Source of the DNA: Vibrio taketomensis
GTDB lineage: Bacteria > Pseudomonadota > Gammaproteobacteria > Enterobacterales > Vibrionaceae
Assembly: GCF_009938165.1 (NCBI RefSeq)
Contig: NZ_AP019649.1
Coordinates: forward strand, 1,798,001-1,862,000
Length of the DNA: 64,000 bases
Reading direction: 5' to 3'
Shown here: in pieces, positions 10,012-62,948 of the stretch
How the letters are laid out: the number at the start of each line of letters is the position of its first letter
Position numbering within the stretch: position 1 is the first letter of the stretch
Program-made: the position numbers and the translations under genes
Notes under the pieces: generated by a model
What the model saw: only the letters and a program-made list of their open reading frames with translations
Database searches by the model: none
Told to the model about the DNA's origin: nothing

Positions 10012-11536
10012 TTAGGCGATTGATACTCTATTTCGCCCAGCATTCTTACTCATGTATAGCTGGGCATCAGCAAGTTGCATGATCTGTTCTGCGTCTTCTT
10101 GATCCCTAATTGCAGCACCAATACTAATACTGCATGTTGCGGCTTCACCATTAAGACATATCGTATTTTGCATCATCGCAAGACGAATAACTTCAAGATA
10201 TTCCTCTAATTGCCCTCTATCGGTTATGGCGGTGATGATACAGAACTCATCACCACCTAAACGAGCGACGATATCATCACCAATTAGGCAATTTTTAACC
10301 GTATTCGCTACATGACATAGCATTTGGTCGCCGCCAAGATGCCCGAAACTATCATTAACTTGTTTAAATTCATCGATATCAAAGCCAATCAGCGAAAACT
10401 TCTATCATCGATAATGGCTTGCGAGATAAATTGGTTAAACGCTCGGCGGTTGTAAATTGACGTCAAGGAATCATGTTCAACTAAGAAACTGATTTCTTCT
10501 GTACAATTTTCAATGAATCGGCGAGATGGGAATGTGCGCGAATTTGTAGAAAAACAATGTAACTCAGCAGAATGGCAATGACGACACCACCAGAGGCAAT
10601 TGCGGCGAGAATGAACTCATCGTTAGCGGTGATATTTTTGTTTGAACGAAACTCAACCGCCCACTGACGGTTAGGCAGATCGATGATCGTCTGCACGGAA
10701 AAGCCATAACTATCCTTCCAGTTCGCACTCTCAAATAGCACCGGATCATCTTCAGCATCAAAGCCAAGATCTCTCACTTGAACCTCTAACTGATTACTAG
10801 AAACCGTACGTTTTACCAAGTTCTCAAAGTAATACGATGTACGAATCACACCGATTACGACTCCGAGCAACTCCTGATTATTTTCGGAATCAAATACTGG
10901 GTGATAAACCAAGATACCATCTTTTTTGCCAGTCTTTTCTAAACTGTCTTGCAACAAGCGAACTTTATCAGAAACGGAAACTTGCTGATGGACACGAATA
11001 TTGTCCAATACCAATTGGAATCTCAAGCGTGCATCATAAAAACCTAGGGTATGACGCGTTTGAGCGGTGATTGGATAAACGTAACGAGCAACAAAAATAG
11101 GTTCATTGTTTTCTAGGACGTAACCATCAACTCGAGGTTTATCTTTGGGAATGGTGTAAATCTGATAGTCTGGATATTGCTGGCGAACTTCAGCCACAAA
11201 CTGGTCAATATCACGCTTCTCAACTCTTTGCATCCACTGCATGGTAATCAAGGTATTGGACGATCTCACCAATTGTTGAGCAAAGGTGGGGAATTTTGGC
11301 CACTCGCTCGGATCAACTGAGTAGAAGAAGTTAGCCCCTGCGCCGATTTGGTCTAAATCATTATCAACAAACTCTTTAAGAATCTCTGTTTGTCGCTGAG
11401 CCATACCAGTGAACCAACGCTCACTGTAGTTGTTTTGCAGCTGGTACGCGTAAAAGGTGATGCTAAACGTCACTAAAATGGTAGTGATAAAGGTTAAACC
11501 TGCGTATAGATACTTTTTGTCAATTGTCGTTTTCAT
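10012..11536 (-). pseudogene. CHASE-domain diguanylate cyclase, two frameshifts
   Basis: Membrane cyclase that would make cyclic di-GMP. A membrane helix at about residues 9-31, a periplasmic CHASE sensor (about 45-290), a second membrane helix (about 305-330) and a C-terminal GGDEF domain with intact GGDEF at about 10254-10268. The frame breaks twice: about 10490-10500 (just after the second helix) and at the A-run 10395-10398. Reading the right frames gives HDSLTSIYNRRAF, then IGFDIDEFKQVND, then RLGGDEFCII, so both breaks behave as one-base deletions. Repaired length is 508 codons. The allosteric RxxD site before GGDEF is absent (IGDD). Either a sequencing artefact or a recent pseudogene; I favour the artefact. 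Confidence 0.85.
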
Positions 11537-11848
11537 GCTCGCGCACTGAAGTGCATGTTCTTATTGTTCTAGAGCAATCATTCTACTCTCTCCCTATCGA
11601 GGACTACATCACTTATTGTGTAAACTTCATCCAAAAGTTGCAATCAAACAACGTTTTCTTACTCAGTGAGAAAATTCATTGTTTAAAAACAAACCAACCA
11701 GTGCTGTCTATACTGTTTCTTATGCGTTTTCCACGAGATTCCTCGCTTGAATATGATACCATCCACCCCAATTTACTTATGATTACTGGCTTAATGCCCA
11801 AATTTCGCTCAAGCCAAATTTGCACTCTAACCTAGAAAGAGAATTGTC
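11537..11848. other. Divergent intergenic region, cyclase / DUF2760 operon
   Basis: 312 bases between two divergent genes. An open frame at 11524-11835 exists but shows no recognisable protein. The region contains a 21-base near-perfect palindrome at 11654-11674 and should hold both promoters. No sigma-32-type heat-shock promoter could be identified with confidence. Confidence 0.55.
11654..11674. promoter_or_regulatory. 21-base near-perfect palindrome in divergent promoter region
   Basis: TTTTCTTACT and AGTGAGAAAA flank a central C at 11664; only one base pair per arm fails to match. Central placement between divergent promoters suggests an operator, with an unknown regulator. A simple cruciform-prone AT-rich patch is an alternative. 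Confidence 0.4.
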
Positions 11849-12481
11849 ATGACGTTCGATCTACATACGTTTCCTTCAACCTTCGACATGTTGCACGTTA
11901 TTCTTGCAGCGACCACTGCTCTATTCCTTATCGTTGCTCTTTCGCGCAAAACGAAAGTGATCGAGAAAGTGGTTGAAAAGCCAGTTGAAAAAATCGTTGA
12001 GGTTGAAAAACCAGTCGAGAAGATTGTTGAAGTAGAAAAAGTAGTCGAAGTTGAAAAAGTGATCGAGAAGGTAGTTGAAGTTGAATCAAAACTTGCAACA
12101 GCTACCACTGACTCTGCGATGCAACTATTGTCTATCATGCAACAAGAAGCGCGCCTAATTGACTTCCTAAAAGAAGATCTAACTGCATTTTCTGATGAAG
12201 AAGTGGGTGCAGCAGCTCGCGTGATCCACACTGGTGGCCAAAAAGTACTGGCTGATTACGTAACGCTAGAGCACATTCGCAACGAAGACGAAGAGACTCG
12301 CATTACCGTAGAAGCAGGCTTTAACCCACAACAAATTCGCCTAACCGGCAACGTGACTGGTCAAGCGCCATTTAACGGCACGCTAGTACACAAAGGCTGG
12401 AAAGCAACAGACATGAAGTTGCCAAAACTGGCTGAGAATTACGACGCTTCTGTTATCGCTCCGGCTGAGGTCGAGCTTTAA
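11849..12481 (+). CDS. DUF2760 protein, membrane-anchored with VEK-repeat stalk
   Basis: 210 residues. A membrane helix spans about residues 17-34, followed by a highly repetitive stretch (about 37-78) built from VEK/IVEVE/PVEK units that should form a charged extended or coiled stalk, then the DUF2760 domain to the C-terminus. The function is unknown. Its stop codon overlaps the start of the next gene (TAATG), so it is translationally coupled to an Hsp70-type ATPase, and together with the next two genes it forms one operon. The arrangement suggests a membrane adaptor or anchor for the Hsp70 pair; that is inference from gene order. Confidence 0.85.
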   Translation: MTFDLHTFPSTFDMLHVILAATTALFLIVALSRKTKVIEKVVEKPVEKIVEVEKPVEKIVEVEKVVEVEKVIEKVVEVESKLATATTDSAMQLLSIMQQEARLIDFLKEDLTAFSDEEVGAAARVIHTGGQKVLADYVTLEHIRNEDEETRITVEAGFNPQQIRLTGNVTGQAPFNGTLVHKGWKATDMKLPKLAENYDASVIAPAEVEL

Positions 12482-14421
12482 TGGAATACCAACAAGCAAG
12501 TGTTGCAAATACTATGAATACTGAAAATACCCAACCTGCATTTAGCGTTGGTATCGACTTAGGTACTACGCATTGTGTGATGTCTTTCCTAGATACTCGT
12601 GATGAAGAAGCGAAAGTTGAGGTGATGCCAATCCCTCAGCTAACGGCACCGGGTACGGTTGAGACACGCAGTCAACTGGGTTCTTTCCTATACCAGCCGC
12701 ATGAGCATGAGATGGACCCTTCATCACGCGTTCTGCCTTGGTCTACTGAACCAAAAGCGTTAGTCGGTGCGATTGCCCGTAACCTTGGTTCAAAAACGCC
12801 AATCCGTTTGGTAGCGAGTGCGAAATCATGGTTATGCCATGGCGGCGTCAATCGTCGTGATGCATTCCTACCAGCTGGTAGCCCAGAAGAAGTGGAAAAA
12901 GTATCGCCACTGCGTGCAACTGAGTTATACCTTGAGCACTTAACGGCGGCTTGGAACCATGCACATCCAAACGATCCGCTACAAGAGCAAGATGTAACTA
13001 TCACTGTACCGGCATCATTCGACCCTGCCGCCCGTGATTTAACCGCAGAAGCGGCGCGCAATATCGGTCTTACGCACTTAACTCTACTTGAAGAGCCACA
13101 AGCGGCACTTTACAACTGGATCGATAACAGCGGCGACAAATGGCGTGACCAAGTCACCGTTGGTGACATCGTATTGGTAGTCGATATCGGTGGTGGTACT
13201 ACTGACCTTTCTTTGGTTGAAGTAACAGAAGAAGACGGCAACCTAACACTGAACCGCATCGCCGTAGGTGAACATATCCTACTTGGTGGTGACAACATGG
13301 ATCTCGCCCTTGCTTACCGCCTAAAAATGAAATTGGCGCAAGAAGGCAAAGAGCTGCAACCATGGCAAGTGCAAGCAATGACTCACGCTTGTCGTGACGC
13401 TAAAGAAGCCTTGCTAAATGACGCAGAGCTCCACTCTGTGCCTATCGTCGTACCAAGCCGTGGCTCTAAACTGCTTGGCGCAACGCTAAAGACTGAATTG
13501 ACTCAAGCAGAAGTACAGCAAACATTAGTCGATGGTTTCTTCCCAATCGTGGCGATCACTGAGCATCCAGTACAACGTAGTCGCGGTGCATTGACTCAAA
13601 TGGGTCTACCTTATGCGCAAGATGCGGGCATTACTCGTCATATTGCGGCTTTCTTGTCTAAACAAGCGAACGCTCTATCAGGCGATAGTGCGCCAGCACA
13701 AGAATACAACCCATTTGCGGGCATGCCAGGCATGGGCGGTGACACGCCTACAGCAGATTTCATCAAACCAACGGCGATTTTATTTAACGGTGGTGTCCTG
13801 AAATCAACGCTACTGTCTAACCGTCTAGAAGAGACGATTGGTGAATGGCTAATCAATGCTGACGCTGAGCTACCGAAACGTCTAACTGGTACCGATTTGG
13901 ATCTTGCGGTTGCGAGCGGCGCTTCATACTACGGCTCAGTGCGTCGTGGCCAAGGCGTGCGTATTCGTGGTGGTATCGCATCAAGCTACTACGTGGGTAT
14001 TGAAAGTGCGATGCCAGCGATTCCGGGTATGGCTCCACCAATGGAAGCACTATGTGTGGCTCCGTTTGGTATGGAAGAAGGCTCAAGTGTTGACGTTCCA
14101 AGCCAAGAATTTGGTTTGATCATCGGTCAGCCAGTGAACTTCCAATTCTTCGGTTCAACTGTACGTCGCGACGATTTAGCCGGTACACATCTTGATTACT
14201 GGGCGCCAGAAGAGCTTGAAGAGCTACCTGAAATTCAAGTAACGCTGCCAGTATCTGAAGGTCGCCGTGAAGGTGAAGTGGTACCGGTTACTCTAGCATC
14301 TCGCGTAACCGAACTCGGTACTTTGTACCTAGAGGCTATCGCCGCTGACAATGGTCAGAAATGGCACGTTGAATTCGACGTGCGTGAAGATGCGAAAAGC
14401 GACTCAAACGAAGAACAATAA
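12481..14421 (+). CDS. Hsp70 family ATPase (DnaK-like, non-canonical)
   Basis: 646-residue protein with an actin-fold ATPase domain: phosphate loop 1 GIDLGTTHC at about residue 24, phosphate loop 2 DIGGGTTDLSL at about 234, and adenosine motif FNGGVLKS at about 439. The C-terminal part is a beta domain without the long helical lid of DnaK, and no EEVD-like tail is present. The start ATG overlaps the DUF2760 stop; a second ATG at 12514 is also possible. It is distinct from DnaK, HscA and YegD; client unknown. A terminator-like hairpin separates it from the second Hsp70 gene. Confidence 0.88.
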   Translation: MEYQQASVANTMNTENTQPAFSVGIDLGTTHCVMSFLDTRDEEAKVEVMPIPQLTAPGTVETRSQLGSFLYQPHEHEMDPSSRVLPWSTEPKALVGAIARNLGSKTPIRLVASAKSWLCHGGVNRRDAFLPAGSPEEVEKVSPLRATELYLEHLTAAWNHAHPNDPLQEQDVTITVPASFDPAARDLTAEAARNIGLTHLTLLEEPQAALYNWIDNSGDKWRDQVTVGDIVLVVDIGGGTTDLSLVEVTEEDGNLTLNRIAVGEHILLGGDNMDLALAYRLKMKLAQEGKELQPWQVQAMTHACRDAKEALLNDAELHSVPIVVPSRGSKLLGATLKTELTQAEVQQTLVDGFFPIVAITEHPVQRSRGALTQMGLPYAQDAGITRHIAAFLSKQANALSGDSAPAQEYNPFAGMPGMGGDTPTADFIKPTAILFNGGVLKSTLLSNRLEETIGEWLINADAELPKRLTGTDLDLAVASGASYYGSVRRGQGVRIRGGIASSYYVGIESAMPAIPGMAPPMEALCVAPFGMEEGSSVDVPSQEFGLIIGQPVNFQFFGSTVRRDDLAGTHLDYWAPEELEELPEIQVTLPVSEGRREGEVVPVTLASRVTELGTLYLEAIAADNGQKWHVEFDVREDAKSDSNEEQ

Positions 14422-14429
14422 TTAAATCT

Positions 14430-14457
14430 AACGGCATCCAACTGGGTGCCGTTTTTC
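14430..14457 (+). terminator. Terminator-like hairpin inside the Hsp70 operon
   Basis: AACGGCATCC / GGGTGCCGTT stem (one G-T pair), loop AACT, then TTTTT... It lies between the two Hsp70 genes with only 55 bases between stop and next start, so it probably attenuates rather than ends transcription. Confidence 0.7.
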
Positions 14458-14476
14458 GAATACACGAAGGTTTGTA

Positions 14477-17282
14477 ATGGCATCTCCTCGTTTTCTCGTC
14501 GGCATTGACCTTGGCACCACCAACACTGTGGTCGCCTACTGTGAAATCACCGACGACCTACAACAATCTCCAGTATCCTTATTTGACATCGACCAACTAA
14601 TTGGCGCCGGCGAAGTGGTTCGTAAACCGCTGCTGCCTTCATTTCGCTACCATCCCGCCATTGGTCAAATCTCACCCAATGACTTAACTCTACCGTGGCA
14701 AAATCAGCCCGTTGCTGGTGATATTGAACACGTCATTATCGGTGAATGGGCCCGTGAACTTGGTGCCAAAGTCGAAGGTAGACAAGTCTCCAGTGCTAAA
14801 AGCTGGTTGTCACACAAACCGTTGACCGTAACTCAGAGATTCTGCCGTGGGCAGGTGCGACTGACGTTGACAAAGTATCACCGGTAATTGCCAGCGCAAG
14901 CTATCTCAACCACATTCGCCAAGCATGGAACTACCGTAACCCAAGCAACAAATTAGAAAATCAAGATGTGGTGGTCACCGTGCCAGCTTCATTTGACGAA
15001 ACCGCACGTAAACTGACTTTGGAAGCAGCGAAACTGGCGGGGCTTGAGCGTATTGTGTTGCTCGAAGAGCCACAGGCAGTATGTTACGACTGGTATGCTC
15101 GCCACCAGCAAACCGCTGCGGACGAGCTTAAGCAGCTGCCACTGATTTTGGTCTGTGACGTCGGCGGTGGTACCACTGACTTGAGTTTGATTGAAGCCAG
15201 TTTTGCTACCGATAATGGTGAAGAACTTGCCCTAAACCGCATTGGCGTGGGTGAACACTTAATGCTCGGGGGCGATAACCTCGACTTGGCCCTAGCTCAC
15301 CTTGCGGAAAGTCGCTTCAATCAAAACAAGAAGCTCAATGCGGCGAGCTTAACCAAGCTTATTCAGCAAACGCGCAAAGCAAAAGAAAACCTGCTTTCAG
15401 CCAACGCACCAGAGCAAGTTAAGATCACGATGCTCGGCAGTGGCTCTAAGCTGCTTGGCGGCACCAAAAGTATTGATTTGTACAAAGCCGAAGTGCACCA
15501 AATCGCACTGGATGGCTTTTTCCCAATCAGTGAGTTTACGGAACTGCCTGACAAACGTCGCAGCGCTGTGGTCGAGTTTGGTCTGCCTTACGTCGCAGAC
15601 CCAGCAGTCAGTAAACATGTGGCGGAGTTCTTAACTCAGCATCAGCAAGTTTCTCGCTCGGCATTAGGAATTGAAGGCGATAATCAAACCGCTATTCCGG
15701 TTGGTTTGCTGCTTAACGGTGGTGTATTTAACAGTGAATTGATCACTGAGCGAGTCACCACCTTGCTCGAAAACTGGCGCGGTGGTGAGATCACTGTACT
15801 CGATAACCCACATCCAGATTGGTCGGTAGCACTTGGCGCTGTCGCTTTTGGTAAAGCTCGCCGTGGTGCTCAGCTAAAAATTGGTGGCGGAGCAGCACGT
15901 TCGTACTTCTTGCATCTGCAAGAGAAAAACAAGCTTGGTAAAGCACTATGTTTGCTGGCTAAAGGCACCGAAGAGGGGCAAGAAATTCGCTTAAGTGGCC
16001 GCCGTTTTTCACTCACGCTTGGCGAACCAGTACGCTTTAATCTGCTGACATCAACCCATGACACGCTGACTAATCAAACCGCAATTCAAAACGGCGTGAT
16101 GGTCAATGTCGATCCTGACCTTTTCCAACCGCTACCACCGTATATCGCCACACTCGATAGCGAAGGTGTCGAGCTGCAAGCCAACCAAAAAGAGCGGGTT
16201 GAAGTGTTGCTGGCGTGTCAGTTAACAGAAGTCGGTACACTTAAGATGGAATGTGTTTCGACTCAGAATGACAGCAAACGTTGGGCGTTAGAATTTGAAG
16301 TGCGCAATCAACAAGCAGTTGAAGAAGAACAAAACCTTCACCCACGCCTAGGAGAGTAAGAGCGATCACCCGCATCACAGTGGTAACAGAAAGCGGTGAC
16401 AATAGCGAAATCAAAACTCTGGCCAAAGATCTTGAAAAACGCCTTGGTCAGCGTGATGAATGGGACTTCACTACTCTACGCCAACTGTTTGATGCGTTTG
16501 CCGGCGGCCGTAAGCGTCGTCGTCGCTCAGAGCAGCATGAGAAAAACTGGCTTCGCTTAGCTGGTTTTGCGCTGCGCCCTGGTTTTGGCGATGCCACCGA
16601 TGCTTGGCGTATTGAGCAAGTTTGGAGTCTCTATCAACAAGGGATTCAATTTAAGAACCACCAAGGTTGGACTGACTGGTGGGTATTTTGGCGACGTATC
16701 GCTGGCGGTTTAAATCAAGAGCAGCAAGAAACTATTCTGGCTGATATCGCTAAATACCTGCACCCGGGTGCGATGAAAAGCCCACAAAGCGCAAAAGCGG
16801 CGCAAGATATGGGTTACGAATCGATGGTTCGCCTTTCTGCGTCACTTGAACATCTGGATGTAGAAGATAAAGTGCTACTAAGCAGTTGGTTCTTAAGCAA
16901 AGCGATCAACCACAATCAGTTCCAACAAGCACACTGGTGGGCACTCGGCCGCCTAGCCTCTCGTACGCCGTTGTACGGAAGCCAGCATAATGTCGTAAGT
17001 CGTGAACAAGCTGAGCAATGGTTACCAAAACTGCTGGAGCAAAATTGGCAAAAAGAACCAATGATTGCCTTTGCTGCAGTAATGATCTGCCGCAAAACGG
17101 GTGATCGCCTGTTTGATATTTCCGATGATTACCGCCAACAAGTACTCGAAAAACTAAAACTAAGCAAAGTTCCAGAGACTTGGATTGAACTCGTTGCGGA
17201 AGTGAAAGCGCTGTCTGCCAATGAGTCTAAACGTATCTTTGGTGACGCATTGCCAAGCGGTTTAACCCTAGTTCATCAGTAA
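14477..17282 (+). pseudogene. Hsp70 family protein with C-terminal DUF3731 domain, two frameshifts
   Basis: Second Hsp70-type ATPase of the operon, repaired length about 935 residues. Phosphate loop 1 GIDLGTTNTVVAY at about residue 9, phosphate loop 2 DVGGGTTDLSL near 15160, adenosine motif LNGGVFNS near 15713, then the C-terminal DUF3731-type helical region (around GRKRRRRSEQHEKNWLRLAG). Breaks lie at about 14819-14822, where HK changes frame and the next frame resumes as DRNSEILPWAGATDVDKVSP, and at about 16353-16358, where the ATPase part meets a stop and the DUF3731 part continues in another frame. Both act as one-base deletions. The second break could instead be a true split into two genes, but the fused form is the usual one in the family. 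Confidence 0.85.
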
Positions 17283-17293
17283 CCATACGTTAG

Positions 17294-17334
17294 TCTCAAA
17301 GTCACCAACAACAATGGGGGTGGCTTTTGAGATT
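17294..17334 (+). terminator. Possible terminator of the Hsp70 operon
   Basis: Imperfect inverted repeat: TCTCAAAG-TCACC pairs with GGTGGCTTTTGAGA across about 12 bases, with one bulge and one mismatch, 10 bases after the stop codon. The T-tract is short, so confidence is modest. Confidence 0.45.
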
Positions 17335-17378
17335 TCATCAGGTAAGATAAAAAGGAATGGGAACAAGGTAGTGCTTTG

Positions 17379-17786
17379 ATGCTAAAAGCAAATCGACAGT
17401 TATTGATCGCTCTATTTAGTGCGTTTTGCCTATTATGGCTAAGCGCGACTAAGAGCGTGCAAGCCAACACTGCGCTACCTATTCACGATGCAGCAAAGCA
17501 ACACACTTCGCTACCAACGCCAAATGCAGCCTCAGATTGCCCTACTCACTCTGAACCTAGCCAAGTGCCCAGCCCAATAAAACATCATGCTAAAGTCGAG
17601 CATCAAAGTTGCTCGTCGGTATGCGTCATGAAAATGCCGTTTGAGCCGATGCAATATGCGCTGCAAATTGCGCCTTCTTCAATCGCACCCATCGGTCAAG
17701 ACCAAGCAGCTAAAGCGGTCAGTCGTATTCAAACCCTATTTCGACCTCCAATTGGTAACGCCCTAACTCCTTCACTTCGTGCCTAA
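17379..17786 (+). CDS. Small secreted protein with Cys/His cluster
   Basis: 135 residues, family not recognised. Signal peptide about residues 1-29 (MLKANRQLLIALFSAFCLLW, cleavage near VQA). The mature part is Pro/Gln/His rich with CPTH, a HH pair and SCSSVCVMKMPF, so three cysteines plus histidines and methionines in a short span. This resembles small periplasmic metal-handling proteins such as the DUF2946/CopL type, but that is a guess from composition. The start is ATG 17379; a TTG just before it is in frame. dsbA follows after 47 bases on the same strand, and an oxidase partner would fit a Cys-containing periplasmic protein. Confidence 0.6.
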   Translation: MLKANRQLLIALFSAFCLLWLSATKSVQANTALPIHDAAKQHTSLPTPNAASDCPTHSEPSQVPSPIKHHAKVEHQSCSSVCVMKMPFEPMQYALQIAPSSIAPIGQDQAAKAVSRIQTLFRPPIGNALTPSLRA

Positions 17787-17833
17787 CGCACGTATTCACG
17801 AATAAAATAAGTAAAAGATTAGGAACTCTATCC

Positions 17834-18433
17834 ATGAAGAAAATTTTTGCCTTTTTCGCCACTATGATGATGGCACTGTCTGCCCATGCAACCACATTTA
17901 CTGAGGGTGATTACTACACAGTAATCGACCAGCCGAAAGCGAAAACACCCACCGTTACCGAGTATTTTTCATTTTATTGTCCACACTGTTTTCAGTTTGA
18001 ATCGATTGTGAAAAATCTCAAGCCTGCGCTACCGAAAGATGTGACATTTGAGAAGGTTCACGTTGGCTTTATGGGTGGCCCAATGGGCGAATCAATGATG
18101 AAAGCTTATGCCACGATGGTTGAACTCCAAGTGCAAGATAAGTTAGTGCCTCTGATGTTTGAACAGATTCATGTTCTACGTCAGCCTCCTCGTAATGATG
18201 AAGAGCTACGTCAATGGTTTATCGACAACGGTGTCGGCGCTAACGCGTTTGATCTTGCTTTCAATAGCAACGCAGTGAAATCTAAAGTTGAACAATACAA
18301 CCAACGTTTTACCGACAGCGCACTACGTGGTGTTCCTGCAGTAGTAGTTAATGACAAATATGTTGTTGTAGCGAGCAAAATCCGCAGTTTTGATGAATAT
18401 AATCAGCTGGTTAATTACTTACTTACACTGTAA
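17834..18433 (+). CDS. dsbA: Thiol:disulfide interchange protein DsbA family
   Basis: 199-residue periplasmic oxidoreductase. Signal peptide about 1-19 (ends AHA), thioredoxin-fold active site CPHC at residues 49-52, helical insertion in the middle, and the cis-Pro loop RGVPAVVV at about 166. It introduces disulfides into exported proteins, being reoxidised by DsbB. CPHC is the strongly oxidising DsbA-type dipeptide. Whether it is the main DsbA or a second copy cannot be told from one window. It ends at a strong terminator. Confidence 0.93.
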   Translation: MKKIFAFFATMMMALSAHATTFTEGDYYTVIDQPKAKTPTVTEYFSFYCPHCFQFESIVKNLKPALPKDVTFEKVHVGFMGGPMGESMMKAYATMVELQVQDKLVPLMFEQIHVLRQPPRNDEELRQWFIDNGVGANAFDLAFNSNAVKSKVEQYNQRFTDSALRGVPAVVVNDKYVVVASKIRSFDEYNQLVNYLLTL

Positions 18434-18448
18434 TTGCACCACACAACA

Positions 18449-18474
18449 AGCCAGAGCCTAGCTCTGGCTTTTTT
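18449..18474 (+). terminator. Terminator after dsbA
   Basis: Perfect stem AGCCAGAGC / GCTCTGGCT with a CTA loop followed by TTTTT. Confidence 0.9.
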
Positions 18475-18485
18475 AGGAATAAAAC

Positions 18486-19171
18486 ATGAACCTAGAACAT
18501 TTTGATGCCATATATCAACGGGCTATCGAGCGCAAGGTGGTGCAGAACAACTAGAAGCCATGCTTTCCCCTTCACTAAGCAAACAACAAATTGCTGAGAT
18601 ACCTGATGACCGGTGGCTCTCTGCCTTTTCAATGAAGGTGTTTCAAAGTGGCATGAGTTGGAAGGTAGTTCGCAATAAGTGGCCAAATTTCGAAGAGTTG
18701 TTCTTTGGCTTTAAAGTCGGCCCACTATTAATGCTCTCGGATGAACAATGGGAATTAAAATCGACCGACCAACGTATTATCCGCCACCATGGTAAAGTGA
18801 TGTCGATTGCTGCCAATGCACAAATGATTTATGAAGCGAGCATCGAACACGGCTCATTCGGAAACATGGTGGCAGACTGGCCGCAAGAGGACATCACAGG
18901 GCTTTGGCTTTACTTAAAGAAACACGGTCAGCGCCTTGGCGGCAATACTGGCCCCTACTCACTACGCCAAATGGGCGTCGATACCTTTATTCTATCAACG
19001 GATGTCGAAGCCTATTTACGCAGTTATCAGATTATTGAAGGTGGTCGAGATACCAAACGCTCGCTCGGTGCCTGTAATCAGGCTTTTGCTCACTGGCAGC
19101 AACAAAGTGGTCGTAGCCTTACTCATATCAGCCAAATTATTGCCTATAGCAGTGGCGATAACCGCCTCTAA
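18486..19171 (+). pseudogene. tag: DNA-3-methyladenine glycosylase I, one frameshift
   Basis: Base-excision repair glycosylase of the Tag/Adenine_glyco family that removes 3-methyladenine. From ATG 18486 the frame reads MNLEHFDAIYQRAIERK and then breaks at the GG at 18536-18537; with one more G it continues GGAEQLEAMLSP into the long open frame (KVFQSGMSWKVVRNKWP, HHGKVMSIAANAQMIYE, LGGNTGPYSLRQMGVDTF). Repaired length 228 residues. A GGG-to-GG base loss in a homopolymer is the simplest explanation. It lies 52 bases after dsbA, beyond that gene's terminator. Confidence 0.82.
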
Positions 19172-19183
19172 GTTGCTCATTTC

Positions 19184-19210
19184 AATTCCCGCAAAAGCGG
19201 GAATTTTATT
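19184..19210 (+). terminator. Terminator after tag
   Basis: Perfect 9-base stem AATTCCCGC / GCGGGAATT, loop AAAA, followed by TTATT. Confidence 0.85.
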
Positions 19211-19374
19211 ATCCGTCTAGAGAGAAAGTGCGTTGCATCACTATAACGCAACGCCTGATTGATAAATTTGTAAAGTAGATTAGTTGCTTCAATCTATGTT
19301 TTCATCACTTCCACACTGCGCTACGAGGTATACATTCGACCTGCTCAAAACATTTCACGAGTGTAGGTATTAAA

Positions 19375-20397
19375 ATGAAAACAAAAACAAGAAATTATGC
19401 CACTGTTGGCCTTCTAAGTGCGGTTGCAATTTTCGTTAGCGGTTGTTCGCAAACACCGGCGCAGCCTGAGTTGTACGACTTTACAATTTCAGACTCAACC
19501 ATTAACCAAAATCTGCCATCTGGTTCTGCAATGGTTGTCAATGATGACGACATCATCGTATCTGGCGACGATTCGCCATGGCTATTCGGTGTCGATCAAG
19601 ACTTCACCATTGATAGCACCATGCTTATCGATAATTTCCCTGTGAATAATGACAATCGCATTGACCACAAAACCAAACCTGATTTTGAGGCAATGACGCT
19701 GTTAAATTACAACAATCAGCCTTACTACTTCGTTGTCGGCTCAGGTAGCAAAAAAAATCTGCGTGAAAATGCTTACCTAATCCCAGCGAATGGTGGTGAT
19801 AACATCAAACTATCACTATCTAAATTCTATGCAGACTTGCACCAAGCGGCAGGCTTCACGGCAAACGAAAAAATCAATATTGAAGGTATCGCTAACTCAG
19901 ACGATGAAACCTATATCTTCAACCGTGGTAACGAAGGTAAAAATGCTATCTTCATGATGAAAACTGCGGATATGTTGAACTACCTACAAGGTAAAGCGAC
20001 CACCATTCCTTCTTTGGATGTGGTGCAAGCGCAACTACCAACCATCAATGGCGTTCAGGCATGCTTCTCTGGCGCTGACTTCTGGCAAGATGGCAATAGC
20101 CTAATTTATACAGCGTCAGTGGAAGGTAACAACCAAAGCAGCATCAATGATGGTGCTATTCAAGGCAGCTTTGTTGGCGTATTACCAATCGATGCATTAG
20201 CGAACCAAGATAATATCGATCTAACTCAATACAGCCAATTGATGCAAAATGGCGACCAACCTTTGATCACTAAAGCAGAATCCATTGCTATTGATGAACA
20301 AGATGGCGATCAAGTCTCTGGTTACGTGGTAAGTGATAATGATAACGGCACCAGCCAGTTCTTTACCTTCACCATTGACCAACCAGCAGCTAACTAA
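19375..20397 (+). CDS. DUF6929-like lipoprotein
   Basis: 340-residue predicted lipoprotein: signal peptide with lipobox VSGC, lipidated Cys at about residue 24. The mature chain is rich in Asp/Asn and short repeated strands (GDDSPWLFGVD, KPDFEAMTLL, NIEGIANSDDETYIFNRGNEG), consistent with a beta-propeller of the DUF6929 type. Asp at position +2 is absent (CSQ), so outer-membrane sorting by Lol is expected. The function is unknown. It has its own promoter region and terminator. Confidence 0.7.
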   Translation: MKTKTRNYATVGLLSAVAIFVSGCSQTPAQPELYDFTISDSTINQNLPSGSAMVVNDDDIIVSGDDSPWLFGVDQDFTIDSTMLIDNFPVNNDNRIDHKTKPDFEAMTLLNYNNQPYYFVVGSGSKKNLRENAYLIPANGGDNIKLSLSKFYADLHQAAGFTANEKINIEGIANSDDETYIFNRGNEGKNAIFMMKTADMLNYLQGKATTIPSLDVVQAQLPTINGVQACFSGADFWQDGNSLIYTASVEGNNQSSINDGAIQGSFVGVLPIDALANQDNIDLTQYSQLMQNGDQPLITKAESIAIDEQDGDQVSGYVVSDNDNGTSQFFTFTIDQPAAN

Positions 20398-20427
20398 GCT
20401 ATGACTGACTAAACCAGCCTATCTAAC

Positions 20428-20460
20428 AATCCCTTGGGGTAACTCAAGGGATTTTCTTTA
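20428..20460 (+). terminator. Terminator after the DUF6929-like gene
   Basis: Stem AATCCCTTG / CAAGGGATT with an 8-base loop, then TTTCTTTATTTT. Confidence 0.85.
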
Positions 20461-20593
20461 TTTTCTAACACTCGCCAATTATCCAACTAAAACACCGTTT
20501 ATCCCCATCTACGACCGTTTGTCTCATCATGCAAACTCTATGACGTGAGTTCTTTATTCTGCTTACATCGAAATAGCAGCAAGGATCTCAACC

Positions 20594-21241
20594 ATGACCT
20601 TAAATCGTTTATCTATAGTGATGGCACTCACGACAGCGCTATCGAGCTTTTATCTCGCGGCGAATCCAACTCCAGACATTCTGAACAACTATTACTCAGC
20701 GGCTGAAGGCAATGAAGAGATGGTCGATACCGTCTATAGCCAATTGAAACAGTTGGTGGATGAACAAGGAGCAAAACCTGTCACTATGGTCTATCTCGGC
20801 AGTACGCAAACATTTCAAGGTCGAGATGCCTTATTGCCATGGAATCAAATGAAATATGTTGAAAAGGGACTGGCTACGATCGCAAAAGGTGTAAACATGA
20901 TCGATAGCTTACCCATCGACATCAATGAGCAAGAACGTATTCAAGGATTACCAGAAGCCTACCTTACTCAAGCCATTGCTGCGATTACCTACACGTCTCT
21001 ACCAGACATGTTTAATCACTTCGAACGAGGTTACGACCTCTATTTAGAACTGCTCAACGATCCGCAGTTTTCGGACCAACCATTTGCCGCCAGTTCATGG
21101 ATTTACCTAAACGCCATTCAAGCGGCGATTAGAGCGAAAGATTTGACCCAAGCTCAAACATGGTTAGCCACCATGCAAAGTTTGGATGCCAACAATGCCG
21201 AAACTCAAACCGCGCAACAACTACTCGCAGATCTTAGCTAA
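20594..21241 (+). CDS. Secreted helical protein, first gene of ABC/LolA-like operon
   Basis: 215 residues, family not recognised. Signal peptide about 1-22 (ends FYLAA). The mature part is all-helical with TPR-like periodicity (PDMFNHFERGYDLYLELLND, AIQAAIRAKDLTQAQTWLA). It starts the operon: the ABC ATPase begins 9 bases after its stop. A periplasmic accessory or substrate-recruiting role for the transporter is inferred from position only. Confidence 0.65.
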   Translation: MTLNRLSIVMALTTALSSFYLAANPTPDILNNYYSAAEGNEEMVDTVYSQLKQLVDEQGAKPVTMVYLGSTQTFQGRDALLPWNQMKYVEKGLATIAKGVNMIDSLPIDINEQERIQGLPEAYLTQAIAAITYTSLPDMFNHFERGYDLYLELLNDPQFSDQPFAASSWIYLNAIQAAIRAKDLTQAQTWLATMQSLDANNAETQTAQQLLADLS

Positions 21242-21250
21242 GGAATCATC

Positions 21251-21949
21251 ATGCTTGAATTTAATAATATTCAACGTCATTACCAACTTGGTAACCAGTC
21301 AGTGCCTGCGTTAGCGGATGTTTCAGGCTCAATTGTATCGGGAGAAATGGTGGCGCTTTGCGGCCCTTCTGGCAGTGGCAAAAGCACCTTGCTCAATGTG
21401 CTGGGCCTACTCGATATGCAATATCAAGGCGAGATCCGTTTGTTTGGCACTCCTCTATCAAAAGCACCAAAACAGGCTGCATTTTTGCGCCGAACTCAAC
21501 TTGGATTCATCTTTCAACGTTTCAATCTGGTACCTGTGATGAATGCGCTGGAGAATGTGGCATACCCGCTTCTACTAAATGGTGAGAGTAAAAAACAACA
21601 GCGCTATCAAGCGGAAAAAATGCTGGATCTCGTTGGCTTGAGAGACTTTGCTAATCACCGTCCAGATACCTTATCCGGCGGTCAGCAGCAACGCGTCGCT
21701 ATCGCTCGTGCTCTCGTACACAAACCTAATCTCGTCATCGCTGACGAACCTACCGCAAGTTTAGACAGCCAAACGGCAAAATTGGTGGTCGATATCATGC
21801 GTAATCTAGGCCATGAAATGAACACTACCTTTGTGGTCGCAACTCACGATGCTCGTATGGCATCGCGCTGTGACAGAACCATTGAGCTACTTGATGGCAA
21901 ACTCAATCAATACGCGGACACAAATGAGGTGATCTCATGGGCAAGCTAA
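21251..21949 (+). CDS. ABC transporter ATP-binding protein (MacB/LolD type)
   Basis: 232-residue nucleotide-binding subunit of the MacB/LolD/FtsE class, which powers mechanotransmission permeases rather than classic import. Walker A GPSGSGKST at about residues 38-46, signature LSGGQQQR at about 142, Walker B LVIADEPT at about 161, and the H-loop ATHD at about 198. Its end overlaps the permease start by 13 bases. The usual partner is a four-helix FtsX-fold permease, found next door. Confidence 0.92.
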   Translation: MLEFNNIQRHYQLGNQSVPALADVSGSIVSGEMVALCGPSGSGKSTLLNVLGLLDMQYQGEIRLFGTPLSKAPKQAAFLRRTQLGFIFQRFNLVPVMNALENVAYPLLLNGESKKQQRYQAEKMLDLVGLRDFANHRPDTLSGGQQQRVAIARALVHKPNLVIADEPTASLDSQTAKLVVDIMRNLGHEMNTTFVVATHDARMASRCDRTIELLDGKLNQYADTNEVISWAS

Positions 21950-23201
21950 TCGGATTCCTTACGCCTGACTCAATCAGACTGGCGTGGTTAAACCTAAGAC
22001 GCAATCAACGCCGTAGTGCACTTTCGGTTTTGATCGTGACAATCACCGTATTTGCGTTAACCAGTGCTGGCGGGTTTGGCTTACAAACCTACCACAGCCT
22101 TGAAGAAGCAACGGCTCGTGATATTGGTCACTTAATATTATCAACCCCTGGATACTTCGAGAAAGAGGAAGAAGAACCGCTAGAAAATGGTTTAGCGCAA
22201 ACTCAACAGCTCACTCGACAAATTATGGGATTAGATGAAGTTCGTGGGGTTCAACCAAGTATCGACTTTACTGGACTCATTTCTAATGGCACCAAATCTT
22301 CTATCTACATTGGTCGCGGTGTCAACGATCAAGAATTCGATATGAAAGGACCTTTCCTCGACGTTAAACAAGGTAAAACGCTTTCCAGCCTTCGATCTTC
22401 ACGTTATGACCCAGCCGAGCCAGAGGTAATGCTAGGCGTCGATCTAGCACGCAATCTTAACGTGACGATTGGTGATTGGGTCACATTACTGGCTACTACC
22501 ACGGATGGCGCTTTGAACGCGTATGACTTTAAAGTGCGAGGCATCTATTCCACTGGTGTACCTGAAGTGGATAAACGTCAGTTGTACGTGCACATTGATA
22601 GTGCACAAAGTCTGCTCTACACCGATAAAGTCAGCACCATTTCTATTTTTTTGTTTGATCTAGCCAGCACTGAGCTCGTGCGCCAACAAGTGACACAATT
22701 AATTGCCCAGTCAGGTCTAGAGCTGCAACTGACACCTTGGTATGACCGAGCGTTCTACTACCAAAATGTAAAAAACATCTACAACCGAATTTTCGGCATG
22801 ATTGGCAGCATTATGGCATTGGTGGTTTTGTCTCTCTATTTAACACCATGTCGATGTCAGTGACTGAGCGAACCCGAGAAATTGGCACCCTATCCGCCTT
22901 GGGTAGCTACCCGAATGAAATCATCTCTGGTTTTCTACGTGAAGCAGGCTTACTCGCTCTTATTGGCAGTTTACTTGGCGCGGTGTCTGCAGGCTTACTA
23001 ACCATCTTCTTGATGTTTGCCGATATTCAAATGCCACCACCACCAGGGATGACACAAGGCTATCCATTAACGATCTATTTCTCTCTACCACTAGCTCTTT
23101 CAGCATCTGTCGGTGTGATTTTTATTTGCTTAGTTGCGGCCTTTTTCTCTGCTCGCAAAGGCGTGAACAAACCTATTACCGAGGCACTTATCCATGTCTA
23201 A
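21937..23201 (+). pseudogene. MacB/LolC-type FtsX permease, one frameshift
   Basis: ABC permease with the MacB topology: first membrane helix at about residues 22-45, a periplasmic domain of some 220 residues, then three helices in the C-terminal FtsX domain (SVTERTREIGTLSALGSYPNEI and onward). The frame breaks at the TTTT at 22826-22829; one more T gives VVFVSLFNTMSMSVTERTREIG, joining the two halves into 421 residues. It overlaps the ATPase gene at its start and the LolA-like gene at its end. With that company it probably moves a lipidated or hydrophobic envelope substrate, not proven. Confidence 0.85.
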
Positions 23202-23967
23202 ATTCATTCAATTATTCGCTATCTCATTACTTATCATCGGTGTTCATAATGTAGCGAGCGCAGAGTTATTGCCTCAACAAGTCACTGACTATATACAACG
23301 CGCAGACGATTTCCGCTTAGGCGAAGAATCATCGCAAGTGATTTCGCATGTCGCCATGTATGAAGACAATGTGTTGGACAAAACCCGTCAATACAACGTT
23401 TACACCAGACCAAATCGCGAATCTCTCGTGGTATTTAAGTCTTCTGTAGAAGCTGGGCAAAAAATGCTGATGTTGCAAGATAACTTCTGGCTACAAATGC
23501 CAAAAAGTCGCCGTCCAATTCGGATTACAGCGATGCAAAAACTGCTCGGTGAGGCTTCAGTGGGCGACATTAGCTCACTCACTTGGAGCGAAGACTATCA
23601 AGGCGCATGGATCGCAAGTGAAGCGGTGCAAGACGAGCAGCAAAAGAGTATTGCTAGCCATCATATTCAGTTGACCGCTAAAACAAGCAGCGCCAGTTAT
23701 CAAACCATCGATTTATGGCTGGATGAGCGAAATGGCTTCCCAATCAAAGCCGATTTGTACTTACGTTCAGGTAAACTCGCCAAAAAAGCGTTTTTTACTC
23801 GTGGTGAGCGCAATGGCGATATAGCGGTAACGGCAATGACGTTGTTTGACGCCATTCAAGCCAATAAAAAAACCGTGATTGAATATCGCTCTATCACCCC
23901 ATGGCAATTGGACGATAAATACTACAATCCGAGCTTCCTTGCTCGCAATAACACCACGGAGTTGTGA
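23194..23967 (+). CDS. Outer membrane lipoprotein-sorting (LolA-like) protein
   Basis: 257-residue periplasmic protein of the LolA-like superfamily annotated as outer membrane lipoprotein-sorting protein. Signal peptide about 1-23 (ends ASA), then an open half-barrel type pattern (VYTRPNRESLVVFK, QKMLMLQDNFWLQMPKSRRPIRI, TIDLWLDERNGFPIKADLY). Such proteins carry a lipidic ligand across the periplasm; many are found next to MacB- or RND-type exporters. It overlaps both neighbours, which argues that it is the carrier for this ABC transporter. Confidence 0.8.
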   Translation: MSKFIQLFAISLLIIGVHNVASAELLPQQVTDYIQRADDFRLGEESSQVISHVAMYEDNVLDKTRQYNVYTRPNRESLVVFKSSVEAGQKMLMLQDNFWLQMPKSRRPIRITAMQKLLGEASVGDISSLTWSEDYQGAWIASEAVQDEQQKSIASHHIQLTAKTSSASYQTIDLWLDERNGFPIKADLYLRSGKLAKKAFFTRGERNGDIAVTAMTLFDAIQANKKTVIEYRSITPWQLDDKYYNPSFLARNNTTEL

Positions 23968-23969
23968 TC

Positions 23970-25247
23970 ATGCAGCGTTTGGCTTTACTCGTCTTACTCG
24001 CCAGTGGCTCTTGTGTAAGTCAAGCGCAGCAGTGGCAATTTGATTGGGACTGGGCAGTATCCGGTTATCAGACGGAACGTAGAGACAGCGATTTTATTAC
24101 CCCTGAAACCGACAAGTATGCGCACATAGACAGTCTACTGGACTTGCAAATTCGATCCGGACAATGGAACGGTCTATTTGCGTTATACAGCCAAAACCTT
24201 TACCAAAACCACCCTCAAGCATGGTGGACTGAGAGTGACCATCAGTGGATTGTGCGTGAACTTGCATGGCAAGGTAGCCTTGAAATTGGTGAACAAAATA
24301 TCGATCTCACTCTTGGCAAAATTCGACTCGACTACGGTGTCAGTTATGCCTATCGCCCACTTGATATGTTTAAACCTTATCGACAAAACCCCATTGGTCT
24401 CAGTGTCGAAGAAGGCTCTCTCGTCGCCACTGCATCTTCATTTGATATGGATGGTGAATGGACATTGCTTTATACCAACTCACACTGGACGGACAGTGAC
24501 GTTGATGCGTTCGACCGAGCTAATCAACAGCATGGTGCAGGCATTCGCCGTTATGGTTTGTTGGGTCAACATGAATATCAGTTGATCGGCTACTACGATG
24601 ACGTACGACATGCCTCATTGGGAGGGAGTTGGGTCACGGTGCCAAATCAAGCGTGGGAATTCCACACCGAGGCATTGTGGCAACAACAAAGCATTGGTTA
24701 TCAACTACCAACTCACCCGTTGCAGCCTGTAATGCTTGCAGAAAATGGGCCTGCTTGGCAGGTTTTGGCAGGCTTTACCTACAGCACAGAATCTGGACAT
24801 AGTTTTATTGGCGAATATTGGTTTGATGAGCGCGCATGGAGCAAAACTGATTGGCAGCAAGCACAACGACGAGCACAGCCGCTTAATGTTCAATCAAACA
24901 CTCAACCACTCGCGAGCTCTTATGCCCAAGGGCTCAATCATTACAATCTAACGCAGCACAATATTATGTTGCATTGGAGTTGGGACACAAATTCTTGGTT
25001 GCAATGGCAAAATAATACCGATTGGGAATGGCTGAGAGATATTACTCCAACACTCGATTTACTTATCTCACCGCAAGATGGCGGCGTAATTGCGACGCAA
25101 TGGTTCAATTATCAGTGGATTGATACTGGTAACGCCTCCGTCGATTTGGAATTTACAGCACGCTTTTTAACCGGAGATGCGGATTCTGCTTACGCCCAAA
25201 TTAACGATCGCCGTACACTGGTGTTTATGATCAGAGGTAAATTCTAA
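23970..25247 (+). CDS. Predicted outer-membrane beta-barrel protein of the same operon
   Basis: 425 residues, family not recognised. Signal peptide about 1-20 (ends SQAQ). The mature chain is full of alternating aromatic strands (WQFDWDWAVSGYQ, NGLFALYSQNLYQ, WNYQWIDTG-like segments) and ends RRTLVFMIRGKF with a terminal Phe, typical of barrels inserted by BamA. The start ATG 23970 was chosen over the GTG at 23964, which overlaps the previous stop. The stop overlaps the histidine kinase start. It could be the outer-membrane end of the export route. Confidence 0.65.
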   Translation: MQRLALLVLLASGSCVSQAQQWQFDWDWAVSGYQTERRDSDFITPETDKYAHIDSLLDLQIRSGQWNGLFALYSQNLYQNHPQAWWTESDHQWIVRELAWQGSLEIGEQNIDLTLGKIRLDYGVSYAYRPLDMFKPYRQNPIGLSVEEGSLVATASSFDMDGEWTLLYTNSHWTDSDVDAFDRANQQHGAGIRRYGLLGQHEYQLIGYYDDVRHASLGGSWVTVPNQAWEFHTEALWQQQSIGYQLPTHPLQPVMLAENGPAWQVLAGFTYSTESGHSFIGEYWFDERAWSKTDWQQAQRRAQPLNVQSNTQPLASSYAQGLNHYNLTQHNIMLHWSWDTNSWLQWQNNTDWEWLRDITPTLDLLISPQDGGVIATQWFNYQWIDTGNASVDLEFTARFLTGDADSAYAQINDRRTLVFMIRGKF

Positions 25248-26302
25248 TGAGATCCCGTTACACATCAAAAGATGTCGCTTGGCGAAACTTTATCGCCACG
25301 ACCCTTTTTTGCTTGTTTGTATCCTGCGTCACCTACTCAGTATGGGGTGGGCACGCCTATGTGCACGTCACCACCAGCTTTGGTTACGGTTACGCAGCGA
25401 TCCTCTCTTCTGTCGTTTTAACTCGGCTATTTCCCAATATTCATACTGGAATTGAGACCATTTTTTCACTCTCATTGGGTGTTATTTTTGGCTCTATCAA
25501 CGCGTGGTTTTGGCTCAACAGCTACATGGGGAGTAACTTCTCAGACCTACTGCCTGTGATACTGCTGGGTATTATCTTTTCTGCCATGTGCTTTTATTAC
25601 TTCTATAACCGCGAGCAACAAGCCATCGCTGGCAAACTTTTAGAAGAAACCAAGCGAAAACAAGCAGAACAAGAGAAAGCATTAATTTTGAGCCAATTAA
25701 AGCAGATGCAAAGTCAGATTGAGCCTCATTTTCTGTTCAATACTTTAGCCAATATCAGTGCGTTGATGAGCGACGATGTCGCTAAAGCACGCATGATGCT
25801 AGATAAGTTAACCGAACTGCTACGCACGACACTCACCAACTCTCGTTCAGCAGAAACCGTGGTACAAAATGAAGTGCGCTTGTTGGAAGCGTATTTCGCC
25901 ATACAAAAAGTTCGTTTAGATACTCGCCTTGAATATCAAATCCAAGTCGCGCCGAATGCAATGCATGCGGTTATTCCACCGATGTTAATCCAACCTTTGG
26001 TCGAAAACGCCATCCGTCATGGTATCGAGCCCAAAAGCGCCGGGGGTAACATTGATGTCGAGATCGCTTATCAAGCCGATCAACTCGTGATTAAAGTTCA
26101 AGATAACGGCATTGGTTTGGATGAAAATGCGCAAACCAAAGGGCACGGCATGGGGTTAAGTAATATTAGACAGCGAATTAAAGGGCTTTATCACGACGCT
26201 GCCACTATGAGTGTGACCCAACCTGATTCCGGTGGGTTTTGTGTCACGATTGCCTTACCCACTCAAGTTCCTAGGGTAAATCAGCCAGCGATCAGTGCCT
26301 AA
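25247..26302 (+). CDS. LytS/YehU-type sensor histidine kinase
   Basis: 351-residue membrane kinase. Three to four membrane helices in the first ~115 residues, without a large periplasmic domain, then a short coiled linker (EETKRKQAEQEK) and the His_kinase core with phospho-accepting His at residue 161 (QIEPHFLFNTL) and an ATP-binding domain (PPMLIQPLVENAIRHGI, DNGIGL, GMGLSNIRQRI). The small membrane sensor suggests detection of a signal within the inner membrane. It is coupled to the barrel gene by a TAATG overlap and followed by its regulator. Confidence 0.9.
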   Translation: MRSRYTSKDVAWRNFIATTLFCLFVSCVTYSVWGGHAYVHVTTSFGYGYAAILSSVVLTRLFPNIHTGIETIFSLSLGVIFGSINAWFWLNSYMGSNFSDLLPVILLGIIFSAMCFYYFYNREQQAIAGKLLEETKRKQAEQEKALILSQLKQMQSQIEPHFLFNTLANISALMSDDVAKARMMLDKLTELLRTTLTNSRSAETVVQNEVRLLEAYFAIQKVRLDTRLEYQIQVAPNAMHAVIPPMLIQPLVENAIRHGIEPKSAGGNIDVEIAYQADQLVIKVQDNGIGLDENAQTKGHGMGLSNIRQRIKGLYHDAATMSVTQPDSGGFCVTIALPTQVPRVNQPAISA

Positions 26303-26340
26303 GCATACTCTTGGCTATATTTTTCAAGTAAGGATACTTA

Positions 26341-27114
26341 ATGAATACCATTACGGCCATTATCGCCGATGACGAACCCTTGTTACGTCACCACCTTGAT
26401 CGAAGCTTAGGAGAAGTCTGGCCTGATCTAGAAATAATCGCTTCATGCAGTGATGGTGCTCAGGCCCTACAGCAAATTGAAACTTTGCAGCCTGATGTGG
26501 TCTTTCTAGATATTCGTATGCCTGAACTCGATGGTATGGCGGTCGCTAAAGCATTAAAACAGCTCGAAGTTGTACCACTGATCGTGTTTGTTACCGCTTA
26601 TGACGAATACGCAATTAGTGCTTTTGAACAAAACGCAGCAGACTATCTATTAAAACCGCTCAACGAAACACGACTAGAGAGTTGTTGCGCTAAAATAAAA
26701 CAGCAGTTAGCGAGTAGAAAACCGCAATCCTCCTTGCCTGACATGACCAAACTGCTGCAACAGATTAGCCAACTTGGTCCCGCGGTTCCGCATTATTTGT
26801 CTTGGCTTAAAGCGAGCCGAGGTGAAGACATTCATCTTATATCCGTTGATGATGTACTCTACTTTCGAGCCGAAGAAAAATACGTTTCTATCTATACTGA
26901 CGATCATCGTGAGTACTTAATTCGTACACCACTCAAAGAATTACTCACCCAGCTCGATCCTGACCAGTTTTGGAAAATTCATCGCTCAACCGTCGTGCGA
27001 GTGGCTGCTATTGATAAAGTGAGCAAAGACTTCACTGGACGGATGTTTGTCACTATGCAACAACAAACGCTTCCAGTCAGCCGCGCGCAACAGGCGCTGT
27101 TTAAATCCATGTAG
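26341..27114 (+). CDS. LytR/AlgR-type response regulator with LytTR DNA-binding domain
   Basis: 257 residues: receiver domain with Asp57 as phosphorylation site ([11 protein letters not shown]), acidic pocket DDEP near residue 11, and a C-terminal LytTR domain ([20 protein letters not shown] onward, [17 protein letters not shown]). The pair of this gene with the kinase makes a complete two-component system, and its position at the end of the transporter operon suggests it controls the operon. The segment 20461-20593 upstream of the first gene is where a LytTR direct repeat would be expected; I did not find a convincing one by eye. Confidence 0.9.
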
Positions 27115-62784: not shown

Positions 62785-62948
62785 AAATAAAACCAATACC
62801 TATCAATGGCGAATACTGTAACGGTTAATTTGTCTGGCTGATAGCCCTAAATTGCCATTTCTCGGTTAAAATTAGTAATTAACAATGACATACCTTGATT
62901 AGTTGTAGCTTATGACGATAATCAGAGCATCAATAGAAGGAAAAGTTC

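Follow-up and report, generated by a model that had tools for sequence, protein, structure and literature searches.

The operon and its components

Seven genes on the plus strand, overlapping or nearly touching one another, occupy positions 20594-27114 of the window, the 64,000-nucleotide stretch of Vibrio taketomensis DNA that was analysed. The host genome comprises 4.3 Mb in two contigs. The genes encode a TPR-like protein, an ABC ATPase, a permease, a LolA-like carrier, an outer-membrane beta-barrel protein, a histidine kinase and a LytTR response regulator, and a putative operator lies before the first of them (Table 1). An earlier note on this DNA had given the same seven genes at this place and on this strand, and coordinates and spacings agreed. 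The operon was filed as an ABC/LolA-like trans-envelope exporter of a known, mostly predicted, kind.

Table 1. Positions of the operon genes, the putative operator and the canonical Lol genes in the window (aa, amino acids; TM, transmembrane helix; ORF, open reading frame)
Feature	Positions	Strand	Remark
LytTR/AlgR-type putative operator	20474-20523	+	half-sites 20494 and 20514, weaker one 20474
TPR-like protein, 215 aa, predicted signal peptide, all-helical	20594-21241	+	weak TPR match
ABC ATPase, LolD/DevA/MacB type, 232 aa	21251-21949	+	family search
Permease, whole	21937-23201	+	MacB_PCD and FtsX domains, two ORFs here
Permease N-terminal ORF: predicted TM1, MacB_PCD periplasmic domain, predicted TM2	21937-22863	+	
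Permease C-terminal ORF, FtsX domain	22848-23201	+	
LolA-like carrier, PF17131, 257 aa, kin of NE2245 (3BUU)	23194-23967	+	
Outer-membrane beta-barrel, 425 aa, C-terminal Phe, probably distant DUF1302-like	23970-25247	+	ATG start; GTG at 23964 alternative
PF06580 histidine kinase, 351 aa, four predicted TM helices, almost no periplasmic part	25247-26302	+	
LytTR response regulator, 257 aa	26341-27114	+	
Canonical LolE-LolD-LolC	59653-62796	minus	over curated cut-offs (TIGR or PRK)

The carrier scored 124.3 bits against a curated PF17131 cut-off of 30. At E <= 0.1 it had no match in the LolA family proper; it matched the LolA-superfamily structures 3BUU, 4Z48 and 3BK5. A second PF17131 match in the same genome was set aside as RseB-like; its ORF lies behind sigma-factor-like and anti-sigma-like ORFs.

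The barrel protein was modelled as an 18-strand outer-membrane barrel. The model matched OprD/AlgE-type barrels, and Omp85 was not among the matches listed. DUF1302 (PF06980) was matched by 5 of 63 members of the barrel family (best E 1.2e-4). The window protein itself had no Pfam family match, DUF1302 included, and no DUF1302-family match was obtained in the host genome at E <= 0.001, a search in which the controls were equally silent. The barrel is probably a distant DUF1302-like protein. The earlier note had recognised no family for it or for the first protein of the operon, which is TPR-like. Several database entries for barrel orthologues (P0006, P0008 and others) carry the name 'Beta-lactamase'; the label is probably wrong, since sequence and model show a barrel. 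An inner-membrane ABC transporter, a LolA-like carrier and an outer-membrane barrel, the trans-envelope set proposed in the earlier note, are supported as predicted parts by the family and structure matches.

The permease had been named as FtsX-type in the earlier note. It is present as a member of the MacB_PCD/FtsX family, and the division of its gene into two ORFs in different frames had been missed. Of the 78 named loci with both halves, 77 have them in a single ORF (L082 is the exception); the permease of genome G018 (L104) is split as well. The break is either strain-specific or recent, or a sequencing error, since these 77 loci are unsplit and an intact 421-aa protein is known (P0241, 4 member sequences) that is 99% identical over 97% of the N-terminal ORF. 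With the distant intact homologue L093 as query, the permease matched LolF (6e-18), YtrF (6.5e-12), LolC/E (1e-11) and MacB (4e-8) in the PDB.

Conservation and co-inheritance

Named genomes were scanned with the barrel alignment; 98 matched and 80 loci were kept, from Vibrio, Photobacterium, Aliivibrio, Ferrimonas, Moritella and Microbulbifer. Vibrio natriegens and Aliivibrio fischeri are among the species with the barrel. All seven genes were found in 76 of these loci, and gene order and strand were uniform when the table was read by eye. The remaining four comprise L011, L043 and L070, which end near a contig edge, and L038, which has no TPR match. Median gene spacings in 77-80 relatives were +9, -13, -8, +3, -1 and +13 bp. 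Protein distances over 76 loci correlated at r = 0.78-0.90, to which shared species history contributes.

Of 118 Vibrio genomes, 71 contain both barrel and carrier, and neither was found in the remaining 47. In 70 of the 71 the two genes are separated by 3-208 bp, and in G001 they are on separate contigs; G004, also counted among the carrier genomes, holds relics only. The kinase was found in 72 of the 118 (70 of the 71 carriers, plus G047 and G056 among the 47 others). The TPR gene was found in 62 of the 71 carriers and in none of the other Vibrio genomes. Five genomes without a TPR match have the operator ∼2.9-3.0 kb 5' of the barrel, and in G039 (L102), the one of the five that was read, it sits before the ATPase gene. 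The TPR-like protein is an accessory that is not found in some members. That the seven genes form one co-inherited unit, clustered far above chance, is well supported, and their conservation together bears out the grouping made in the earlier note.

The barrel was matched in 9 of 370 gammaproteobacterial genomes, the host genome included. Twelve stretches were examined, ten of them from the eight other genomes and picked by barrel match. ATPase, permease, carrier and barrel lay together in seven of these ten. L094, a 3-kb contig, keeps permease, carrier and barrel, and L098 and L099 were uninformative. A TPR match was present in six of the ten and a kinase in five; two distant cassettes, L092 and L100, have no adjacent kinase. 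The gene directly 5' of the operon in the window (19375-20397) encodes a DUF6929 family protein, for which no tblastn match was seen in the 80 listed loci.

Operator and two-component control

A perfect direct repeat, ACCRTTYRTC-N10-ACCRTTYRTC, was found at 20494-20523 with a period of 20 bp, upstream of 20594, where the earlier note had suggested searching for a LytTR repeat. Its half-sites are ACCGTTTATC at 20494 and ACCGTTTGTC at 20514, and a weaker half-site lies one period upstream at 20474. The consensus had 2 matches in the window (0 and 2 mismatches) against 0.10 expected. With a consensus built on the window sequence and those of two relatives, and one shuffle per region, 65 of 78 upstream regions of relatives beat the best of 78 shuffled controls. 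A matrix found sites in 78 of 78 upstream regions, mostly ∼100 bp 5' of the start codon, a count biased by training on the same 78 regions. Less biased tests were provided by Plesiomonas L140 (E 1.7e-6) and the distant L093, both of which carry the operator before the cassette, and by whole-genome matches. Only two weak matches were found elsewhere in 1.33 Mb of relatives' loci. A 34-site model gave one match in the host genome, the window operator (150 of 2180 candidates scored), and 20 matches in 19 of 61 Vibrio genomes, 16 at the operon head and 4 elsewhere.

A chance origin of the repeat was ruled out by the shuffled controls, the expectation of 0.10 and the matrix conservation. A period of 21 bp, also considered, fitted 0 of 77 regions. 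The parts, their co-inheritance and the predicted operator with its position are established at the level of sequence. Because a LytTR repeat is present at 20494-20523, predicted self-regulation of the operon is well supported.

Published AlgR sites include CCGTTCGTC, CCGTTTGTC and CCGTTCATC (PMC4064291). All three half-sites fit the window-type CCRTTYRTC, and the window half-site CCGTTTGTC is identical to algD-RB3 (PMC4064291). LytTR sites are generally 9-11-nt repeats with 11-13-nt spacers (PMC4847170); with its half-site taken as 9 nt, the window repeat agrees with this. Four TM helices are predicted for AlgZ (PMC4064291), and the AlgZ/AlgR pair of P. aeruginosa shares with the window pair a four-TM kinase, a LytTR regulator and fitting half-sites. 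The window kinase keeps the G boxes, which are said to be missing from AlgZ (PMC4064291). Unlike AlgZR as described there, the window pair would drive a transporter operon, through two half-sites at a fixed 20-bp period. It is concluded from the sequence that the pair is probably an AlgZR-like system. Since the operator resembles published AlgR sites, AlgZR is preferred as the regulatory analogy to the Bce and VraSR systems named in the earlier note; the description there of a kinase with almost no periplasmic sensor agrees with the predicted topology.

Operators were also seen in other settings. Two Vibrio genomes carry one before a catalase-ankyrin-SodC gene run that adjoins the export operon (L103:4625-4654 and L104:5136-5165). 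The catalase bears a signal peptide; among its ten close orthologues (79-100% identity) the operator precedes two and was not found at eight; an oxidative-stress regulon is therefore no more than a lead. In G047 an operator lies before a kinase-regulator pair (L106:8699-8728, minus strand), and no barrel or carrier was found in that genome. A further operator (L105:9668-9697, minus strand) precedes a gene for a 158-aa membrane protein with an HELGH motif, on a contig other than that of the export operon; the protein is M50-like by eye and has no Pfam match.

VPA0021 is among 21 two-component genes changed on THP-1 cell infection (PMC10469919). It is likely the V. parahaemolyticus regulator of this operon; VPA0015, VPA0018 and VPA0021 fit by annotation only. 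VP1503/VP1502, considered as counterparts, are other two-component genes (PMC10469919). Beyond the VPA0021 listing, no experimental study of the operon was recognised among the papers listed by the open-access searches.

The occurrence of the kinase matches that of the transporter nearly one to one, and the kinase has no sizeable periplasmic part; both would suit a transporter that serves chiefly as the kinase's sensor subunit, in the manner of Bce modules, with flux secondary. Such an arrangement is very improbable, given that the kinase-regulator pair of G047 has the same operator and no adjoining transporter genes, that G056 has the kinase without barrel and carrier, and that the L092 and L100 cassettes stand without an adjacent kinase. 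The carrier and barrel would also be superfluous.

Related cassettes, cargo and proposed mechanism

Permease kin were found by tblastn in 55 plasmid records, 23 of them from Borreliella or Borrelia. The permeases on Borrelia plasmids are homologues of the window type (∼23% over 96%), with E 3e-14 on B31 record NC_001856.1 (lp38). The window carrier gave no Borrelia match at E <= 0.01. Borrelia BBJ23-29 comprises two TPR proteins, an Omp85 protein, an ATPase, a permease, a LolA-like protein and one unknown protein, and a non-polar ligand has been proposed (PMC13078400). With the window system as predicted it shares a TPR protein, a separate ABC ATPase, a LolE-like homodimeric permease, a LolA-like carrier and an outer-membrane barrel (PMC13078400). 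It differs in its two TPR proteins and its gene order and probably in its Omp85 barrel, and no two-component system is described in the available text.

The order TPR-ATPase-permease-LolA-like-barrel is repeated on E. coli plasmid NZ_CP060058, with profile E values of 2.8e-12, 4e-76, 1e-65, 2e-33 and 2e-7 in that order (23 proteins searched). The same cluster holds an acyl carrier protein, a ketosynthase, an SDR protein, a PfkB kinase, a crotonase and a FeeM-type N-acyl synthase (PF21926, E 4e-8). It spans 10978-25180 of NZ_CP060058.1 (L146) and, counting near matches only, is present in 2 of 5426 E. coli genomes. The cassette of Enterobacter bugandensis comprises an ATPase, TPR-like protein, permease, LolA-like protein and barrel candidate flanked by ketosynthase, acpS, FabZ-type, acyl carrier protein and malonyltransferase genes. 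In Klebsiella aerogenes an ATPase, a permease and a weak LolA-like match (E 2e-3) lie beside ketosynthases and a malonyltransferase. The Aliiroseovarius cassette has ATPase, permease and carrier, a hypothetical protein in the barrel position and a HAMP-kinase two-component system; that of Plesiomonas is of the Vibrio type, with no TPR gene listed. The barrel of the distant L100 was recovered with an hhalign probability of 93.

Because related cassettes lie in acyl natural-product-like clusters, a lipid-like small molecule is favoured over lipoproteins as cargo. An acylated or otherwise greasy small molecule is a reasoned guess, for which the related cassettes are the sole source.

Two exporters of hydrophobic molecules offer comparisons that likewise favour such a cargo. 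AmeB is the LolA-superfamily (DUF1329) protein of a hydrophobe exporter of Castellaniella defragrans, and deletion of AmeABCD reduced tolerance of monoterpenes and increased the accumulation of Nile Red (PMC6394551). AmeABCD shares with the window system a DUF1302 barrel, a periplasmic LolA-superfamily protein and a dedicated inner-membrane pump, and the paper cites 3BUU, 4Z48 and 3BK5, the structures matched by the window carrier (PMC6394551). Its differences are an RND/HAE3 pump instead of ABC, a COG4447 protein and a DUF1329 carrier. The window system appears to work like AmeABCD and is not a member, because its pump is ABC plus FtsX, without an RND pump. The aryl polyene cluster, in ApeLMN, likewise has a LolA-like protein, for which transport of an acyl-type molecule to the outer membrane has been proposed; an RND pump and a LolB-like protein take the place of ABC and barrel (PMC8253772).

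The AmeABCD precedent (PMC6394551) is also one of the points in favour of a role in tolerance of amphiphiles rather than in export of a made compound. Tolerance would suit the two-component control by an intramembrane-type kinase, the free-standing setting without conserved biosynthetic genes and the absence of the cassette from 47 of 118 Vibrio genomes. It would further suit the operator before catalase, with ankyrin and SodC behind, in 2 of the 10 genomes with a close catalase orthologue, and the inclusion of VPA0021 among the genes changed in THP-1 infection (PMC10469919). The presence of related cassettes in biosynthetic clusters argues for a made compound, and the operator before the catalase may have arisen by local duplication of a promoter; tolerance is a serious but rather unlikely alternative.

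The Lol systems stand close to the operon in another respect. LolCDE and LolDF share with it an FtsX-type permease, a separate ATPase and a LolA-fold carrier, compared with which the window system has a PF17131 carrier and an added barrel and TPR protein. The canonical LolCDE placed at 59.6-62.8 kb by the earlier note was confirmed as LolE-LolD-LolC. The operon ATPase scored 225 bits against the curated LolD cut-off of 307.75, and the intact permeases L003, L093 and P0241 scored 108-112 bits against the curated LolC/E cut-off of 362.45. The LolC loop QFTPLGRIP, presumably the LolA-binding hook, was absent in all 13 permeases aligned with the LolC and LolE of the window, and a shorter TTxDGALNA-like loop replaces it in each. 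The missing loop and the scores below curated cut-offs are the reasons why the operon was not filed as a Lol system.

A second Lol pathway, sorting a special lipoprotein set and possibly delivering it to the surface via the barrel, is distinctly improbable. The permease is nearest LolF and LolC/E, the carrier is LolA-like, and the LolCDE elsewhere in the window covers the ordinary job, all of which would agree with such a pathway. It is opposed by a PF17131 carrier lacking a LolA family match at E <= 0.1, by the loop replacement in 13 of 13 aligned permeases, by the lack of any further conserved neighbourhood gene and by the related cassettes in acyl clusters.

On balance, and with confidence barely better than even, the operon is read as a self-controlled, ATP-driven trans-envelope exporter for an acylated amphiphile, under AlgZR-like control and distinct from a second lipoprotein Lol pathway. 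The four-helix kinase would detect a change within the inner membrane or close to it and phosphorylate the LytTR regulator, which would bind the AlgR-type direct repeat and activate the operon that encodes it. Cargo would be extracted from the inner membrane by the ATPase together with a LolF-like homodimeric permease, shielded across the periplasm by the LolA-like protein and released into or through the outer membrane by the DUF1302-like barrel, with the TPR protein as an optional periplasmic helper. Export direction, the roles of carrier and barrel and the permease homodimer are taken here from the protein families.

Several results weigh against this exporter. The permease is broken in the window sequence itself. 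The operator failed to beat the shuffled controls in 13 of 78 upstream regions, and its 34-site model recovered the operon head in no more than 16 of the 37 carriers present in the 61 genomes, many carriers having been missed under strict filters. The barrels of the distant cassettes gave weak hhalign probabilities against the Vibrio barrel (Enterobacter 45, E. coli 19, Aliiroseovarius 4), and no link to a Bdellovibrio barrel was found (0.4). No conserved biosynthetic neighbour was found; the commonest flanking family occurs in only 13 of 87 loci, for which reason the Vibrio cassette is regarded as free-standing. The distribution of FeeM does not follow that of the Vibrio cassette: among 16 genomes with a FeeM match over the cut-off, 9 are carriers, compared with 71 of 118 overall, and the host genome has no FeeM.

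A wider reading is held more tentatively, at somewhat less than even confidence. It would place the operon in a widespread class of ABC-powered lipid exporters with a LolA-type carrier, built on a core of LolF-like ABC transporter and PF17131-type carrier, often with a TPR helper, and carrying acylated small molecules as far as the outer membrane or across it. Barrels would be exchangeable (DUF1302-like in Vibrio, Omp85 in Borrelia), as would control, by AlgR-type or other two-component systems or by a biosynthetic cluster; the Vibrio branch would be a dedicated AlgR-type regulon confined essentially to one operon.

Lipoproteins and lipopolysaccharide apart, the ways in which greasy molecules pass the periplasm are still under study. 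Among the 118 Vibrio genomes sampled, 71 (one with a relic) have pump, soluble carrier, barrel, helper and sensor as a compact co-inherited set. Its own operator is a ready reporter for finding the signal, its genes are easily deleted in laboratory strains, and relatives in acyl natural-product-like clusters supply a first testable guess at the cargo. If the reading is true, the exporter class would stand beside Lol, Lpt and Mla.

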